Shown here piece by piece: positions 34,580 to 51,719 of a stretch of 64,000 nt of DNA. The notes under the pieces are model-generated. The model saw nothing but the letters and a program-made list of their open reading frames with translations. It did no database searches and had not been told where the DNA came from. The stretch is from Hypomyces perniciosus (lineage: Eukaryota; Ascomycota; Sordariomycetes; Hypocreales; Hypocreaceae). Both the position numbers and the translations under genes were made by a program. The stretch covers positions 806,001 through 870,000 of the forward strand of contig SPDT01000004.1 in the NCBI GenBank assembly GCA_008477525.1, written 5' to 3'. Numbering within the stretch: position 1 is the first letter of the stretch; each line of letters opens with the position of its first letter.

Positions 34580-37335
34580 CAGTGCTGCATAGACACGCTA
34601 TGAAACTGAAACTGGGGTGAGTTTCAGTTTCATGAAACCGGACGCCAGTATAGTTTCAGTTTCATATGAAACCGGTTTCAGTTTCATATGAATCAATATC
34701 TAATTCCTTTGTTGTTTCCCCCCTCTCTTTGGCAAGCTCCGAGACACCTTACCACTAGGCACTCAAAGATGTCTGGCATTGCCTGCCTACCTATGCTACC
34801 AATTCGCCAGGCTCGCCATCGCTTTCTTCCCCCTTGCCCATCTCTATATCTTCTTGGAGTATCCTTACAGCCGCGTCGATATCATCCACTCCCCTAAACA
34901 CCCCTGCAAGAAGCGGCCTGCTTTTTCCCTTTGGAACACTTATCCAGCTTTTAATGCACTCACATGCCTCTACCATTTTGGCAGACATGCTACTTCTATC
35001 CCATGTAACCTGCCGTCTTGCGCCTGAGAAAATTCGCTCTGCTTCCGTAGACATCGGAGGGATGCAGAATATGTCAATGGCCATACGGCAGAGGAGGGGA
35101 AAATTCTCTCGCTGGGTCGGTTCAAGCCACCACTGTAAGGCCGTTTGTTGTCCAATCCCAACTTGTGAGCCCTGCGAAGTATCGTCAAAACCTGGCCATT
35201 AGGTAGAAGGCTTCAAATTACTTACATAAATAAAGCGGTCGAATTCATCCTTCACCTCGCTCGCTGTGCTGTACACCTTCTGCCTCCAGCGATCGAACTC
35301 GTCGAGTTCTTGCCCTTTCTCCTGTTGTTGATCTTGGAGCTGGTAGCTCTTGTACTCTGTGGACCAAATCTTTCTGACAGACTTCACGGCATTGCTAACC
35401 CAAGCTGGGTTTCTCTTCCACTGCTCACTCAGATAGCTCTTTCGGAGTGCTGGGTGGAGGAGGATACCGGCCACGTACACGGGGGCCTGCTCGGTAAGCT
35501 GGTAATACTTCTCGAACTTTAGCCAAGCCACGTGAAAGCGAGCGTAGAAGCGTGGGTTACTGAAAGCCTTGTCTTTAGCCTGCGTGAAGTGATGATGGAG
35601 GAAATCCATATGAGATAGAACTTCATCGAGTGTGTTCTCCCGGCCTTGGCGTACCGAGATCTGGTGAAATGGTTGTAGAAACGCATGGATGTCTCGGAGC
35701 TCGTTCCAGTCGTTGTGGTCTAGTGCATCTTTCTCGATCTTGGCATGATTTTCTTGAATCCAATCCATGAACTTTGCCCGCCTCTCAATTGCCACGTCAA
35801 TAAGACGAAACCATGAATTCCAGCGTGTATCATTGTCCCTCGGCAAGGCCCTGCCAATCTTGGCCTTGAAGTCGTTGCAGATGCTGGTAGAGCTCCTTGA
35901 ATACATGCACAAGTTGTGGAGCTTCCCCAGAACATTAAACTCCCGCCAGTCCTCGGTGGCTTGTGCCTTCGTAATGACGCCCCCTTCTTCTTTTTCGGAT
36001 AGCCTGCACAGTCGCTCATACGCCTCGTCAATCCCCTCTTGCTCATCCCCCTGAATCTTCTTTGCCTTACTCCGAAAGAGGAAGGCTTGAACGATGAGGT
36101 TCATGATGTGGCCACTGCAGCGTAGTCGCCTGGCAACCGGATCTAAACCATCAATCTCTTTTGCGATATCGTCAAGCATAGTATCGTTGGCATCGTGATT
36201 ATCCATCGTAAAGTAGCCAACCTTTCCGCTGAGGTTGTACTCTTCGACAACATCCAGGAAAGCCTTGGCTTGCAATTTCCCGTTGTGGCTTCCTTTGAAC
36301 TCGCGCAGTGACAATAACACTTGAGCGACTTCTCTCGTCTCCGCATCTACAAAATGGACCACGATTGCCTGGTATGCCGCCTTCTGTTCCGATGAGGTCC
36401 ACATGTCAATGGTGAAGTGAACCATGGATGAGAGAGAATTATGAAGCTTCTTGACGAGGCCTTGTTTGTGTTGAGCGAAAGTCTTTTCGAGAAGCTTCGG
36501 CACCGCACTGCGGCTGCGTAGGAGGACGTCCCGGGCCATATAGTTACAGCAGAGTATAACAGCATGAAACTCGGGGTATTCGATGAATGTGTGGGCGATA
36601 TTGCGAACCGCAAGAAGCCTGGCGAGTGCTTCCTCGAATGCAGGAATATTAATGGCATTTGCCAAATATTTTTCCTCATTAAGGTCTCGATTGGCTTGAC
36701 GTTCCTCCTGCCTTCCAAACAAATCCGTAATGGTGCCATGTTGCCGCTTCTTCAGATCCGACCTTTCTACACGCTCTATAACCCGGATGCCATGAAAGTC
36801 CCGCAGGTGCTTGCGGGCTCGGCTCAGGTTCGTCGTTACCGAATTAGGCTTTTTCGTGGAGTTGCAGTGCTTGCAGTACCAAATTTCGTGGTATGAGGTA
36901 TCGCGAGCTTTCTCCCCTCTCTCTTCATAAGGGTCACGCGCCTCGTTCCAGGTGCTTTTGTTTGTACGGCCTTTGGCGCGCTTGCTAGCCCGATCAGAGG
37001 GAGAACGATGCAATGCGCGCTTGGCGGGAACGGGAGAGTCAGGCGAAGCAGGTCCCAAGACCTCGTCAGAAAGCCCCGATAACAAGGGAGCGGGAGAAGC
37101 TGATGACATATTTACTGTTAGCAAGTTTCTAACTGCGTTGAAGGCATTTGGTTTGTGAAATTTTCTTGGTTAAGTACTAAGATATTTGGGTCTCATCGGG
37201 CGTATATGAAACATATGAAACCGACTGAAACATATGAAACTGGGAGAGTTACAGTTTCATATGAAACTGGGTCCAGGGACTGTTTCAGTTTCATATGAAA
37301 CAGTATGAAACAACACGCGTGGCTATACAGCACTG
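34580..37335 (-). mobile_element. Complete hAT DNA transposon, 2,756 bp
   Basis: Bounded by perfect 8-bp duplications (CTCCTGGG). Ends are imperfect inverted repeats: left CAGTGCTGCATAGACACGC, right (reverse complement) CAGTGCTGTATAGCCACGC, 17 of 19 matching. Both subterminal regions (about 34600-34690 and 37205-37320) carry many copies of the palindrome TTTCATATGAAA and TTTCAGTTTCAT, probable transposase-binding sites. It encodes one transposase on the minus strand with an intact-looking frame. The perfect duplication suggests a recent insertion. Inserted in the adenylosuccinate synthase relic. Confidence 0.95.
34791..37109 (-). CDS. hAT transposase
   Basis: Exons 37109..35226 and 35171..34791 give 754 residues. 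A BED-type zinc finger lies near the N-terminus (Cys79, Cys82, His101, His106; text WYCKHCNSTKKP and KHLRDFHG). The central RNase H-like catalytic region contains FTIDMWTSSEQKAAYQAIV (first Asp), LRCSGHIMNLIVQAF and DNDTRWNSWF. Exon 2 supplies the C-terminal dimerisation block (FPLLCRMAIDIFCIPPMS, then TEAERIFSGARRQVTWDR). The 54-nt intron uses GTAAGT and GCAG; without it the frame stops early. No internal stop or frameshift was seen, so it may be active. An intron in the 5' leader is likely, because a GCTAACAG acceptor sits just upstream of the start. Confidence 0.93.
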
Positions 37336-46400: not shown

Positions 46401-47270
46401 CCATCGAGACGAATAAGGGGTCAGGGGGGATATCGAATGATGAAGTGCCATAGAATATCTAGAAGCGTACTACATTGGTTGTTCAGATGGAATCAAAATA
46501 AACAAACGATGTTGGAAATAGCTTCAAAGGAAATTGTTGTGATGGCATCAGGGGGGAAACCACTAAATTCAAGAATGCTGCGGCCAGTGTTCGTGGGGGT
46601 GTCCTACCAAATTTACAAAAAACCATCTACTGTCAGACACTTTGGTGGGTGGTGATCCTAATTCCACACCTCCAGATTATCCAAGTGCTAGCTATCGCCA
46701 AAGTAACGCCTGCTACAGTGGCCAAGGGCAGTGTCGGGGCATTTCCAATGCCTCAACAACATGGGGGTGGTGGCCCCCTTAGAGAACAGCACCACGAGAA
46801 CACTTAGGACTAGGCAAACACAACTACAACATCAAGATAAATAACCAGTCACACGCAGATACGAGACATCGCTGTCTGGGGGATGGGAATACTCTACATC
46901 TCTCGAGGAAACACAATCACGATGGCCTCAGGGGCCCATGGGACTCCTCAAACCAGGGGGCCCACGATCTCTGCCCTCAACTCCGCTTGCTAGGATCAGG
47001 AAAACTCCCGAAAGAGATCACGATCACGCCATCAACTGCCGTGATCCCCATCGGTAAGGCTGGTCGAGATCACTGACCGTAATTCGAATCACATGGAATC
47101 CCCTCGGGCGGGGGCACTGCCCCCTGCCCTCGCTTCTCGAGTCACCTTTTTGTTTTCCAACTTGATTCCTGGGCTCTGATAGGCCCGTCAGTAATTCGTT
47201 TGTTGTATCTCTTGTACGTACTGATCTTTCAACTGGCAACGGATCAGCCAGTCCCCACTTTTGCATTTCC
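40421..47270. other. 6.8-kb region of coding-like fragments, no gene assignable
   Basis: Moderately AT-rich. Several minus-strand frames read like protein: 42110..41470 (text RIFYHELMYDPEINVWVLKH), 43332..43012 (text ILKRKRQNLRESRKKEQ), 44041..43832 (text GIFDRITRRLRKKEEKN) and 44731..44453 (text RRRFSEFIPVRSAVGRNWHC). Donor- and branch-like sites lie between them, but I could not link them into one frame. No domain is recognised. They may be exons of an unknown intron-rich gene, a decayed gene, or chance. No tRNA or terminal repeats seen. Confidence 0.3.
41470..42110 (-). CDS. Hypothetical two-exon fragment
   Basis: An upstream frame (text LEQISLALDDREKEARMSHH) can be joined to a downstream frame (text TFELDRTSKNLTVNQWPTM, then the RIFYHELMYDPEINVW stretch) by an intron. 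Its donor is weak (GTGGAA), while its branch/acceptor is strong (AAGCTAACAAAAATCGGTAG). Stop at 41470. The 5' end is not defined. No family recognised. Confidence 0.3.
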
Positions 47271-47402
47271 CCCAACTATATGAAGCTCGCCTCCCCCCTC
47301 CTCTTCCCTTTCCTTTCTTCTTCTCTCCATCACCCTTTCCCATTTTCAGGAAGCTTCGCTAATCTACTTTGTGAGTACCGCATTTCTTTCTTCATTCACT
47401 CT

Positions 47403-47579
47403 TGTGCAATGATTAGTATTAGGGTTCTTCTGACTCGGTTCGTCCGCCCGCGCTGCGACCTGAGCACCAAGTGGTGGCTCAAGTTGCAGCTTGGAAACAA
47501 CCCGAGCCCCTGGGCACACCTGGGGCTTCGCTCGGGAGCCTTCCTTGGGTCACTGAAGGAAAGAAACTTTATGAGCACA
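47403..47579 (+). ncRNA. C/D-like RNA copy 0 (long form)
   Basis: Terminal stem TGTGC (47403-47407) with GCACA (47575-47579). C-like box ATGATTA at 47409 and D-like box ATGA at 47571. An internal CTGA (D'-like) lies near 47430. About 177 nt, longer than the other copies, with a different stem sequence that still pairs. Confidence 0.6.
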
Positions 47580-47657
47580 CTGACTTCCCCAACCTTTCTC
47601 CACCCTGACCTTCGTGATCGTCGCTAACACCCCTCAGTCTTGAACAGGTCCGATCGA

Positions 47658-47769
47658 GCGGGAGTGATTACAAAAGGGTTCTTGAGAGCCAAAGCCCCGT
47701 CGGCTGAAGCACCCAGTGGTGACCGATGCCGCAGTGGTAGGCGATGACCAAGCAAACTGTATGACCCGC
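47658..47769 (+). ncRNA. C/D-like RNA copy 1
   Basis: Stem GCGGG (47658-47662) with CCCGC (47765-47769). C-like GTGATTA at 47664, D-like ATGA at 47761. The base after the C box is C here and pairs with G before the D box; other copies have G and C, a compensatory change. Confidence 0.65.
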
Positions 47770-47862
47770 CTTGTCCGCTTTTCTTTTTTGACATCGTGCT
47801 TTTTTGACCTCGAGGTCGAACATCAGGTGAGTTCTTTCCGTCTTGTTTTCCTCCCCCTTGAT

Positions 47863-47978
47863 CGGAAGTGATTAGAAAAGGGTTCTTGGGAGCTGACCAT
47901 TGTTGCTGCTCGTGACACCTCCATAGAGGTTGATCGGCGCTCAATGGTTGGCGGTGACCAAAGAAATTCTATGATCCG
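47863..47978 (+). ncRNA. C/D-like RNA copy 2
   Basis: Stem CGGA with TCCG (47975-47978). GTGATTA at 47868, ATGA at 47971. Internal hairpin ACCTC-CATA-GAGGT. Shared core AAAAGGGTTCTTGGGAGCTG. Confidence 0.65.
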
Positions 47979-48116
47979 CTTTGCATTTTCCAACTTTTTG
48001 GTTTCCATCTCAGGTACGTCCCTCTTGTCCGCTTTTATGCTAACGGTGTCACAGCTCTTACATTCTGAATCAAACATTAGGTGAGTTGTTTCCGTCTTGT
48101 TTTCCTGCCCTCTCGT

Positions 48117-48232
48117 CGGACGTGATTAGAAAAGGGTTCTTGGGAGCTGACCATTGTTGCTGCTTGTGACACCTCTATGGAGGTTGATCGACACTCAATG
48201 GTTGGCGGTGACCAAGCAACTTCTATGATCCG
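48117..48232 (+). ncRNA. C/D-like RNA copy 3
   Basis: Stem CGGA with TCCG. GTGATTA at 48122, ATGA at 48225. Internal hairpin ACCTC-TATG-GAGGT. Flanked by donor GTGAGT at 48081 and acceptor TTTCAG ending 48259. Confidence 0.65.
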
Positions 48233-48361
48233 CTTTGCATTTCCGATTTTTTATTTCAGGTATGTCTTTCCTCTTTGCTTTTATGCTAACAGTGTCACAG
48301 TTTCCATCCTTTATGTGAATACTAGGTGAGTTTTTTCCGTCTTGTTTTCCTCCCCCTTCAT

Positions 48362-48475
48362 CGGCAGTGATTAGAAAAGGGTTCTTGGGAGCTACCGTTT
48401 GTGCCTGTGACGCCTCCATGGAGGTTGATCGGCGCTCAATGGCTGGCAATGACCATAAGCAACTTCTATGATCCG
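48362..48475 (+). ncRNA. C/D-like RNA copy 4
   Basis: Stem CGG with CCG. GTGATTA at 48367, ATGA at 48468. Internal hairpin GCCTC-CATG-GAGGT with one G-U pair. Confidence 0.6.
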
Positions 48476-48607
48476 CTTTGCATTTTTCAACTTTTCGTTT
48501 TAGGTACGTCCATCTACCTTGTTTTTATGCTAACTGTGTCACAGTTATTAGGTCTCCGTCAAACATCAGGTATGTTTTTTTTTCTCGTTTTGTTTTCCTG
48601 TCCTTGA

Positions 48608-48722
48608 GCGGAAATGATTAGAAAAGGGTTCTTGGGAGCTACCATTTCTGCCTGTGACACCCAATCGGGGTTGATCAGTAGTTAATGGTTGGTGATGACC
48701 ACAAGTAACTTCTATGATCCGC
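48608..48722 (+). ncRNA. C/D-like RNA copy 5
   Basis: Stem GCGGA with TCCGC, five pairs. ATGATTA at 48614, ATGA at 48714. Internal hairpin ACCC-AATCG-GGGT, different bases but still paired. Confidence 0.65.
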
Positions 48723-48852
48723 TTTTGCATTTTTCAACTTTCGTTTTAGGTACGTCTTTCTCCTGCGTTTTCATGCTAACTGTGTCACAGCTCCTAGGTT
48801 CCAAGTCAAATATTAGGTGAGTTTTTTCCGTCTCAATTTCCTGTCTTTTTGT

Positions 48853-48965
48853 CGGAAGTGATTAGAAAAGGGTTCTTGGCAGCTACCATTTGTGTCCGTG
48901 ACACCCCATGGGGGCTGATCGGTACTCGATGGTTGGCGATGACCACAAGTAACTTCTATGATCCG
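48853..48965 (+). ncRNA. C/D-like RNA copy 6
   Basis: Stem CGGA with TCCG. GTGATTA at 48858, ATGA at 48958. Internal hairpin CCCC-ATG-GGGG. Confidence 0.65.
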
Positions 48966-49114
48966 CCTTTCATTTTTCAAGTTTCTGGTTTTTGTTCCAG
49001 GCACGTGCGTCTCCTCAGTTTCGGTGCTAACATTGTCACAGACTCACAGTTCTTAGGTTCTGCGTTGAATTTCGGGTGAGTACATTTTTCTTTCTGTCTT
49101 ATTGTTTTTGTGTT

Positions 49115-49229
49115 CGGAGATGATTAGAAAAGGGTTCTTGGGAGCCACCCTTTTGTGCCTGTGACACCCCTTGCGGGTTGATCGGTATTTAATGGTTTGG
49201 CAGTGACCACCAGCAATTTCTATGATCCG
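49115..49229 (+). ncRNA. C/D-like RNA copy 7
   Basis: Stem CGGA with TCCG. ATGATTA at 49120, ATGA at 49222. Internal hairpin ACCC-CTTGC-GGGT. Confidence 0.65.
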
Positions 49230-49369
49230 CTTTTCTTTGGACATTTTCCCTATGTTCTTGATTTCGTTTCAGGTACGTCCATTCTCTCCGCTTTTCTGCT
49301 AACAATGTCACAGCTTCTAGTTTTCGGTGAGTCCATCCACCCTTTCCCCTCTCCCCCCATTTTTGTGTT

Positions 49370-49488
49370 CGGAGATGATTAGAAAAGGGTTCTTGCGAGC
49401 CGACCATTGCTGCTGCCTGTGACGCCTCCATAGAGGCTGATCAGGACTCAATGGTTTGGCAGTGACCATCGGATACTACTATGATCCG
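49370..49488 (+). ncRNA. C/D-like RNA copy 8
   Basis: Stem CGGA with TCCG. ATGATTA at 49375, ATGA at 49481. Internal hairpin GCCTC-CATA-GAGGC: the outer A-U pair of copies 2 and 3 is G-C here. Confidence 0.65.
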
Positions 49489-49585
49489 CTTTGCTACTGA
49501 CTTTCTTTTCATAGTTTCTGGTTTTCGAGTCCAATTTCAGGTGAGTCGACCCTTTTTTTAATCTTCAAGTCTTTTTGTCACACTT

Positions 49586-49684
49586 GGGACATGATTCAAA
49601 AATGGGTTCTTGGTAGTCATCACTCAGTACTTGCCTTGTAAGTCGAAGTGGTTGGCGCTGACCGAAACACATTAGTATGATCCC
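49586..49684 (+). ncRNA. C/D-like RNA copy 9 (degenerate)
   Basis: Stem GGGA (49586-49589) with TCCC (49681-49684), a C-G to G-C swap relative to other copies. ATGATTC at 49591, ATGA at 49677. The pair after the C box is lost and the internal hairpin is unclear. Confidence 0.5.
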
Positions 49685-49843
49685 TCAGGTTTGTGTCGAT
49701 TTAACTTTTCTCTCTCCTCTCCTCTGCTCCCCCCTTGTGTCAGCGAATGGTGACTAACTTCTTGTGTTTTGCAGGTTCATCAACATTCGGTAAGTCTTCA
49801 GGTGAGTGTCTTCCTTTCCCCTTCTCCCCCTCCCCCTCCAGTC

Positions 49844-49934
49844 TGCGAAATGATGGAAAAACCTGCGCTTTGAGAGTTCATAACTTTGTGATTGTCGCAA
49901 ATAGCCAGTTAGGCAAGGGTTCAATCTGATCGCA
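49844..49934 (+). ncRNA. Canonical C/D-box snoRNA
   Basis: Terminal stem TGCGA (49844-49848) with TCGCA (49930-49934). Box C ATGATGG at 49850, box D CTGA at 49926, C'-like GTGATTG at 49888 and D'-like TTGA near 49870. The antisense stretch before box D would be about AAGGGTTCAAT. At 91 nt this is a normal box C/D snoRNA of the kind that guides rRNA or snRNA 2'-O-methylation. It lies in an intron of the same host transcript (donor GTGAGT at 49802). Confidence 0.8.
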
Positions 49935-50040
49935 CTTTTTTCTTCTACGTTTTTTTGTACCGAAAACTTCATTGAGCGCTGACTACTTCATTCACAGGAC
50001 ATGGGCATCACGTCTTGACATCATCAAGAACTCGGTAAGT

Positions 50041-51719
50041 TTCTCAGTTTTTTCTATTTGCTGCTGTTTGATGGAAATGATGACGCCGTCTTACGCGCAA
50101 GGGCTTGGTTCGCCTTCGTGTGTATGTTCCGGCTATACCTGGGATGCTGTTCTACACGAGAAATCTTGATTGGGGTTCTATTCTTGTGTAGGGTTCTGGC
50201 AGCCATCTTCGGTTTCTCGGGCTTTCAGGTTCATCCTGGGCTCAAGGTTACTGATCCATTGTTTCATTTTGCCTTGATTTTACCTGCATTACTTTTGGTT
50301 CAGAGGCTAACACTTTGAGTTCGTTCTTAGGATATCGACTTTACAACCCCCGATCGAATACGAAGAACGCACTCCACGATCGACCGATCCGACCGAAATA
50401 GACAGAATTCTCTTCGATAAAATAAATACAAAACTTTGGGCTTTGTTTGGTTATGACTGCACTCGGATGCTACGGTGGTGATGGTGACCAGAGGACAAGC
50501 TTTTTGCATTTTCGAGACATTGGTAGACATGAATTTGGAATCTGTACCAACTCAGAAACTGTACAACTCACAAATTTTGAATGGCAGTTTGTCTTGAATC
50601 TATCGGTGTCGGTGGACTATTTCTTCTTTACCTGCTCCTATCAGTCACTGGAGGCAAACAGCCAATTTTGGCATTTTCCAAATTCACTACCAGAAATACA
50701 AGTTTGACTTGTATAATGTATGCCAACTGAACTTCCAGTTCTTTCGAATGGGTTGTGCGTGAGCGAGTCGGTTGTCTTGCCCTAACAATGTTCAGAGTGA
50801 CCTGTGACTCAGGCAGCTATTTCAAAAATATTTCGTGATTCAGGGACAGGGAAACCTTTATCTTTTACGGTAGGCTTTTTTCATCTTTTCTGAATATGGT
50901 GCTGACAGGGTACTCAAAGTTTCGGTTACAGCCAGGGGATAGTACCGCCATCTCTCGAAGCTAACTTTGGTTACGCAGTTGACCTAACGGACGAGCGAGA
51001 CAACGATCGAGTTCACGAATCCATTGATTTAAACACAAAAAGAGAAAGCCACGTTATTCTCATGGAGGAAAAGCCATCGGTCGGGTGCAAAAGATGCGAG
51101 ATCCGTTCTCGACACAGATATATTTCCCACTGTCATTTTCGGTCCGCCGACATGGCAAACGCAATCAATCGAACCTTGTTTGTCGCAAGCTCAAAAACCA
51201 CAAAGCCATGGGAACCATTACTTCAAATGATGGAGGTGTTGTGCGAAGTTCCAGACTGGAACGACGGGGTTCGGAAAGGACTTCAACAAATTTGCCTTAG
51301 CGAGGTGAATGCCAATTCCATTTGGCGACATACCTGTCAGACACAGGAGCAGAAACGGTTATCTTTGTTGTGAGAGAACTGAATAAATGTTAATGGATGA
51401 TCCCGTACTCATCCCATCCCATAAAGGTGTACATCGATCAAAAAGGCATTAGGGTTTCCATGGCCAACATGAGAGAAGCTTTCCATCTTGTCCATAAAAC
51501 CTTGGCTACGAGGATTTTTAAGAATCATACAAGGTTGATAAAAAAATTCAGAATAAAAAGAAACAACAATTGTGATTCACACTTCGTACAGGAATGAAAG
51601 GATGGCTCGTTACGACTGCAGCAGAAGGGCGGATGGGAACAAGATCATAGCAAAAGTTCGAGTTGACAGACTAGCAAATTATATATACAGATGACTTTTC
51701 CACCAAGTCCAAAACGCAG
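50041..51719. other. Intergenic, 3' part of the host transcript and unassigned DNA
   Basis: A C-box-like ATGATGA at 50077, preceded by TGGA, could pair across to CTGATCCA at 50251. The span is long and crosses an acceptor-like TTTCAG, so I do not call an RNA. Small plus-strand ORFs (e.g. 51062..51373) have no support. Confidence 0.35.

Follow-up and report, generated by a model that had tools for sequence, protein, structure and literature searches.

What kind of RNA, if any, is encoded by the repeated units at 47403-49684, and does their arrangement have an equivalent among fungi? The original prediction for this locus proposed a tandem, intron-borne family of structured RNAs that recalls the mammalian SNORD115/116 clusters. 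We found about ten related small RNA units in the introns of one apparently non-coding gene at 47403-49684 of the window (the whole 64-kb stretch of DNA that was analysed); the proposed layout is supported, and the class is probably box C/D. In our judgement, the array quite probably consists of related box C/D snoRNAs, encoded one after another in the introns of a UHG-like, non-coding host gene. This assignment is drawn from features seen directly in the DNA, namely the boxes, their register, the pairing, the intron signals and the conservation relative to the flanks. The neighbouring genes in the window include those for ECM29, an SNZ-type protein, an RRM protein and a kinase, a set in keeping with a filamentous ascomycete, and the 18S sequence appears to be that of a Sordariomycete.

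Units of the array

The units and the other features of the locus are as follows.

47403-47579, + strand: u1, the most diverged unit (177 nt), stem TGTGC/GCACA, GGGTTCTT core; box C ATGATTA at 47409-47415, box D ATGA at 47571-47574
47553-47556, + strand: internal CTGA of u1, with a U14-like guide upstream
47657-47771, + strand: u2, stem GCGGG/CCCGC; box C GTGATTA at 47664-47670, box D ATGA at 47761-47764
47861-47981, + strand: u3, stem CGGA/TCCG; GTGATTA at 47868, ATGA ending at 47974
48115-48235, + strand: u4; GTGATTA at 48122, ATGA ending at 48228
48360-48478, + strand: u5; GTGATTA at 48367, ATGA ending at 48471; C-T mismatch at the innermost terminal-stem pair
48607-48724, + strand: u6, stem GCGGA/TCCGC; ATGATTA at 48614, ATGA ending at 48717
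48851-48968, + strand: u7; GTGATTA at 48858, ATGA ending at 48961
49113-49232, + strand: u8; ATGATTA at 49120, ATGA ending at 49225
49368-49491, + strand: u9; ATGATTA at 49375, ATGA ending at 49484
49583-49687, + strand: u10, diverged, stem GGGA/TCCC; ATGATTC at 49591, ATGA ending at 49680; inner boxes not evident
49844-49934, + strand: canonical C/D candidate, stem TGCGA/TCGCA; box C ATGATGG at 49850, CTGA ending at 49929
50069-50261, + strand: long canonical C/D candidate, stem TGATGGA/TCCATTG; box C ATGATGA at 50077, CTGA ending at 50254
47371-50330, + strand: putative non-coding host transcript, from the first GTGAGT to the last 3' splice site, as read from splice signals
48014-48054, + strand: first of six 41-nt elements, a possible mini-intron that directly abuts the intron of the snoRNA
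48260, 48504, 48750, 49001 and 49273 (starts), + strand: the other five 41-nt elements

Seven units, u3-u9, are clear copies of one another. A covariance model built from these seven and run over the 64-kb window at E ≤ 10 matched u3-u9, the diverged u2 (E 7.1e-12) and the diverged u10 (E 6.6e-6), and nothing further. The ten units of the original prediction are therefore recovered as seven clear and two diverged copies, while u1 gave no match to the model at the same threshold; this unit, which is longer than the others owing to an insert, joins the array by its closing stem, its ATGATTA...ATGA boxes and the GGGTTCTT block alone. The shared core of the tandem units is borne out: AAAAGGGTTCTTGGGAGC, with small changes, is present in all nine units from u2 to u10, at core-to-core distances of 204, 254, 245, 247, 244, 262, 255 and 217 nt.

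The genome is 44.0 Mb in size. A genome-wide search with the core pattern AAANGGGTTCTTGNNAG, allowing one mismatch, returned 20 matches, nine of them exact and every one of these in the array. The remaining 11, each with one mismatch, lie outside the array and have no adjoining box C as judged by eye. The total of 20 compares with 19 matches in the genome for a reversed control pattern. DNA searches of the genome with u3 and with u6 each returned seven places, all in the array. The core pattern was absent from the viral contigs searched, and the core string was not found in PMC full text. In bacterial and archaeal genomes the pattern matched once, in an apparent coding sequence of a cyanobacterial MAG, which we took as chance.

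A matched change in box C and box D

The ends of the units read stem, one nucleotide, RTGATT(A/C)...TATGA, stem, and all of the stem pairs named in the original prediction are present in this register. Compared with the consensus RUGAUGA/CUGA, box C is RTGATTA (ATGATTC in u10) and box D is ATGA. In all ten units, base 6 of box C is U and base 1 of box D is A, so that the expected pair between the two boxes would be U-A, not G-C. Placing the pair at these positions of the motif agrees with passages of PMC5389607.

The box C/D kink-turn is described, in passages of PMC8162545, as a three-nucleotide bulge with tandem G.A pairs. The motif also includes a stem I, a stem II and a U that protrudes from the bulge. 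In sequence, the unit ends have this register, with a stem I of at least 4 bp in 9/10 units (u5 has the mismatch) and the GA of each box in 10/10. By reading, candidate inner boxes are GTGA/TGATC in u3-u9 and CTGA/GATG in u2, likewise matched at the swapped-pair position, and none are evident in u1 and u10; C' and D' boxes are often degenerate, according to the same source (PMC8162545, in part).

We scanned both strands of the window for box pairs in kink-turn register closed by a stem of at least 4 bp, or of at least 5 bp. At the lower threshold, the compensated pair RTGATTN/ATGA occurs nine times on the + strand and the canonical pair RTGATGN/CTGA twice, neither occurs on the − strand, and all 11 matched pairs (9/9 and 2/2) lie inside the 3-kb host gene. 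The mixed U/C combination was found once, on the − strand, and the mixed G/A combination twice on the + strand and once on the − strand; both + strand mixed pairs fall outside the host gene. At the higher threshold, the + strand holds two canonical, three compensated, no U/C and one G/A pair, and the − strand holds none of any class. Window shuffles give 0.4-0.5 pairs per class. In dinucleotide shuffles of the + strand, compensated pairs average 0.47 and none of 200 shuffles reaches nine, although these nine are copies of each other and are therefore not nine independent events. The canonical pairs average 0.42 per window shuffle and 0.01 per host-stretch shuffle; since 16 of the 200 window shuffles reach two of them, their weight lies in their location in the host gene.

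The swapped pair in a U14 gene

The two changed boxes are also found together outside the array. The whole genome was searched, with up to two mismatches, for a U14 guide motif. Five matches were obtained, two of which also have the 18S-complementary domain A. These two U14 genes score 62.7 and 47.2 bits against RF00016 (E 4.7e-12 and 8.2e-8; gathering score 64). One has the box pair ATGATGA/CTGA and a snR107-like neighbour at 40.7 bits (gathering score 44), and the other has ATGATTA/ATGA, the swapped pair of the array units. As judged from sequence, the swapped pair is thus also present in a gene of this genome that can be recognised as a C/D snoRNA, and this suggests that Nop58 may accept a U-A box pair. 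U14 differs from the array units in domain A, which was not seen in them, and its guide has a likeness only in u1. Compared by BLAST with both U14 loci, the host gene gave six matches of 12-13 nt. Separately, Nop-domain genes were seen in the genome as four exon-level matches at three places.

ATGA has been described as box D in fungal snoRNA clusters (PMC3596301, in part) and also in Dictyostelium (PMC8817022, in part), and a matched change of both boxes, with UGAUUA as box C, was not found among the literature matches listed, as far as the excerpts of these sources extend. From the compensated pair, the known fungal ATGA variant and the U14 gene with both changes, we consider the array boxes a probable variant, in which the units depart from the consensus letters of the boxes and not from the box C/D motif. 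In archaea, Nop5, the homologue of Nop58, is reported in passages of PMC5389607 to make contact with the C in box D and with the GA that ends box C. These contacts fall on the very bases that differ here, and particle assembly on the swapped boxes could therefore be weaker.

Targets and proposed function

Box C/D methylation guides carry, immediately 5' of box D or D', a complement of 10-21 nt to rRNA or snRNA. The rRNA target scan covered 18S, a portion of the spacer and the first part of ITS1, and accepted duplexes from 10 bp upwards that contain no more than two G-U pairs. It returned zero to two duplexes per unit and no target common to the array in 18S or the available spacer; one duplex is shared by u3 and u9, and its place is the hairpin, away from any guide position. 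In u1, GCCTTCCTTGGGT (47538-47550) forms a 13-bp duplex with 18S that includes one G-U; it lies 2 nt before the CTGA, in the same register as the guide of both U14 genes, and may be either a chance complement or a captured guide.

This complement in u1 favours a reading that we hold to be unlikely, namely that the copies are guides of diverging specificity, the pre-D' sequence of each differing so as to diversify methylation or mRNA targets. Such a reading would also accommodate the variation of the pre-D' stretch among copies whose boxes and core stay constant. However, in the units other than u1 no duplex of 10 bp or longer with the available 18S and spacer letters abuts D or D' on the upstream side (placed by eye), and, again as judged by eye, most predicted folds have the variable stretch paired at least in part. 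Several points weigh against the box C/D assignment itself: the stretch just before box D is able to pair with the 3' flank of box C, unlike an open guide, no Rfam family matched, no target was found in the RNAs scanned, and the folding energies are ordinary.

The conserved core and the tail gave no duplex with 18S, the spacer, U6 or U5 above the best of 30 shuffles; the best 18S duplexes score 15.0 (core) and 13.8 (tail), and the shuffled means are 14.4 and 14.4. U2, U5 and U6 were scanned with the core and tail only, and for U2 the scan used one gene, with the second U2 entry taken on the reverse strand. A core duplex at 17.3 (best of the shuffles 15.6) was set aside; it falls in sequence past the 3' end of one of the U2 genes and so is not part of the presumed mature RNA. 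The orphan status of the family is provisional, the RNAs compared being 18S, the available spacer letters, U2, U5 and U6.

Rfam gave no match at gathering scores in the 64-kb window, and the two canonical C/D candidates (49844-49934 and 50069-50261) likewise had none. At E ≤ 10 in the locus (47100-50500), one lncRNA match at E 8.1 was obtained and taken as chance. The Rfam hit to an unrelated known element, which the original prediction had named as evidence against itself, appeared in neither search. A tRNA scan found none.

In the snoRNA reading that we prefer, the AAAAGGGTTCTTGGGAGC block, nearly constant in most units, together with a pre-D' stretch that is variable and self-pairing, points to one shared target or partner and to gene dosage, which we consider most likely over ten specificities. 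The host would be transcribed and spliced, and the excised introns debranched. Trimming would then stop at the kink-turn at the unit ends, protected by Snu13 (15.5K) and Nop58, which box C/D snoRNAs bind along with Nop56 and Nop1, and leave RNAs some 105-120 nt long (some 177 nt in the case of u1). Once expressed and bound by protein in this way, the copies would work on that single target or partner and add to its dose. Their role would be that of an orphan, processing or chaperone-type snoRNA, and not that of ten distinct methylation guides.

Conservation and pairing

Among u3-u9, the mean pairwise identity is 80% for the unit and 58% for the part of the intron upstream of it; for the stretch downstream and the small exons it is 48% and 42%, two values that are depressed by gaps, as u9 lacks the mini-intron and the u8 exon is short. 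Single pairs of units are 72-92% alike, and box C plus the core reach 96%. The most economical account would have the family, with its compensated box pair, maintained by selection that acts on the boxes and a single core.

We assign a low probability to the array being one functional C/D snoRNA accompanied by decaying pseudogene copies. Differences of up to 28% within u3-u9, the want of evident inner boxes in u10 and the stem mismatch in u5 would fit such decay. It sits poorly with units that are better conserved than their flanks, with the near-identity of box C and core, and with the pair of U at box C position 6 and A at box D position 1, which is kept in 10/10 units.

The covariation that was taken in the original prediction as direct evidence of selection on RNA structure has partial support in the terminal stem across ten units and does not exceed shuffles within u3-u9, for which the claim of direct evidence is too strong. 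In u3-u9, 1/23 pairs has a two-sided change, which 264 of 500 shuffles match. When u1-u10 are taken together, the terminal stem has its four inner pairs formed in 39/40 cells, with five two-sided changes; in 5000 shuffles of the whole 3' arm, a test that ignores relatedness among the units, 0.38% reach the paired count and 0.22% the two-sided changes, while 10% reach the number of further pair types (four). This signal rests on few events, in u1, u2 and u10. The next helix inwards, beside box C, shows a two-sided change once, and none of its three measures rises above shuffles. The covariation proposed for the internal hairpin is seen as an A-U to G-C change in u9 alone, while u5 has a G-U and in u7 the pair is broken. 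RNAalifold on nine units gave 25 pairs, four with a two-sided change, and a covariation term of -0.39. Fold energies of u2-u10 are ordinary (z of -0.73, -1.89, -1.55, -0.78, -1.52, 0.37, 0.71, -0.82 and -1.24, in order). Support for the structure comes from the motif and the outer stem; stability adds none.

Host gene and splicing signals

GTGAGT (GTATGT for u6) precedes u1 and u3-u10, and by reading does not clearly precede u2. Following each of u3-u8, a CAG or TAG is directly succeeded by GTACGT (four cases), GTATGT (one) or GCACGT (one), then by TGCTAAC and TCACAG, and then by an exon. The six 41-nt elements delimited in this way align without a gap, and the internal exons after them measure 26, 25, 25, 26, 34 and 13 nt. 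Each element is a possible mini-intron that adjoins the snoRNA intron with no exon between; alternatively, each repeat may hold a single intron, about 219-238 nt in length, that ends at TCACAG. Exonless side-by-side introns that are spliced stepwise have been described in fungal snoRNA clusters (PMC3596301, in part). Since the exons are so little alike, gaps counted, and differ in length, the host gene is unlikely to encode a protein. By its splice signals, the locus would have the SNORD115/116-type layout for u3-u10, while the splice sites between u1 and u2 are ambiguous.

Intron structure can aid splicing, and the six units that have a 41-nt element behind them, ungapped in alignment and bearing a GTACGT-like start, TGCTAAC and TCACAG, would suit cis-acting structures that fold the introns and help to splice the mini-introns, with no stable RNA released. 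We find this account improbable. It leaves unexplained the C/D boxes in kink-turn register, the box swap in common with a U14 gene, and the two canonical C/D candidates in neighbouring introns. Chance or transposon-like repeats without RNA function are very improbable: tandem duplication by itself yields repeats, but the searches placed the units at a single locus and the box and stem counts exceed those of shuffles.

Relation to known C/D families

As a putative snoRNA array, the locus resembles SNORD115/SNORD116 (also SNORD113/114 and rat Bsr) in its repeated introns of a non-coding gene with one C/D RNA per repeat, and in array RNAs that have no common target in the RNAs tested. The mammalian arrays can reach hundreds of copies (PMC11028025, in part) and the present one about ten. 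The swapped box C/D pair, the inner hairpin and the 72-92% likeness of u3-u9 also set it apart, and we do not claim homology.

Among fungi, 45 of 55 C/D snoRNAs of N. crassa are intron-encoded, and five clusters have UHG-like hosts, according to passages of PMC2780460. The fungal UHG-like clusters (six in N. crassa; I-III across fungi) share with the array several intronic C/D snoRNAs, a host of little coding potential and exonless adjoining introns, as far as the available parts of PMC2780460 and PMC3596301 describe them. Each of clusters I-III carries different snoRNAs, whereas the array holds ten copies of one family and, in contrast to those clusters, no Rfam family reaches its gathering score in the window. 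The snR4, snR45 and U13 RNAs, C/D RNAs long deemed orphans, guide 18S acetylation (PMC5464676, in part); the array differs from them in that its core and tail have no 18S complement above shuffles, for single duplexes. Acetylation guides of this kind pair in two parts with helix 34 or helix 45 of 18S.

The statement that no fungal equivalent is known must accordingly be divided. Intronic C/D host genes are established in filamentous fungi (PMC2780460 and PMC3596301, in the parts seen), and such hosts, ATGA boxes and adjoining introns are already known. A multi-copy array of one C/D snoRNA in fungi was not found in the open-licence literature, among the matches listed. What appears to be new, from the sequence, is the copy number of one family and the family-wide box swap.

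Large tandem C/D families have been called eutherian-specific innovations, with the remark that understudied genomes might contain others, and the same source presents such arrays as particular to mammals and linked to imprinting (PMC11028025, in part). We propose tentatively, and with some doubt, that the locus is an independent fungal counterpart of the mammalian orphan C/D arrays, in which a whole family has U-A for G-C at bases that Nop5/Nop58 is reported to read. As one of its U14 genes is ATGATTA/ATGA and the other canonical, this fungus may use two box codes at once. A fungal array of this kind would separate tandem amplification from imprinting and would be tractable for copy-by-copy deletion. 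The matched change of two boxes, also between two U14 genes, would offer a natural test of whether Nop58 reads the pairing or the letters.

A possible U14-like guide in the array

The most diverged unit of the snoRNA array, u1 (window 47403..47579, + strand), contains at 47538-47556 a 13-nt stretch complementary to 18S (one G-U) and then, 2 nt on, CTGA. The spacing between this complement and CTGA is the register of a U14 guide, and u1 may be a chimera of an array unit and a U14-like guide. Elsewhere in the same genome (G000) there are two U14 genes:

C4:6583281-6583298, minus strand, U14 gene (L048)
C8:3966290-3966307, minus strand, U14 gene (L049)

Their box pairs differ, being ATGATTA/ATGA in L048 and ATGATGA/CTGA in L049; the latter has an snR107-like neighbour (RF04328, under gathering score).

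Other features of the window

35199-37169, - strand, long open frame
48014-49313, six elements of 41 nt, each opening with a GTACGT-like motif and carrying TGCTAAC and TCACAG
49844-49934, + strand, canonical C/D candidate
50069-50261, + strand, long canonical C/D candidate (193 nt)

The open frame, which resembles that of a hAT-type transposase, gave no Pfam match at E<=0.001. In the shorter C/D candidate, the sequence before a possible D' box may resemble a guide to the position in 25S that snR13 targets in yeast. The longer one has a predicted fold that includes a long internal hairpin, and contains GGGTTCTGGCAGCC, reminiscent of the array core, the nearly invariant block after box C in most units. 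The 41-nt elements are the same length in all six cases, each immediately preceded by CAG or TAG, and are candidate sites of stepwise splicing.
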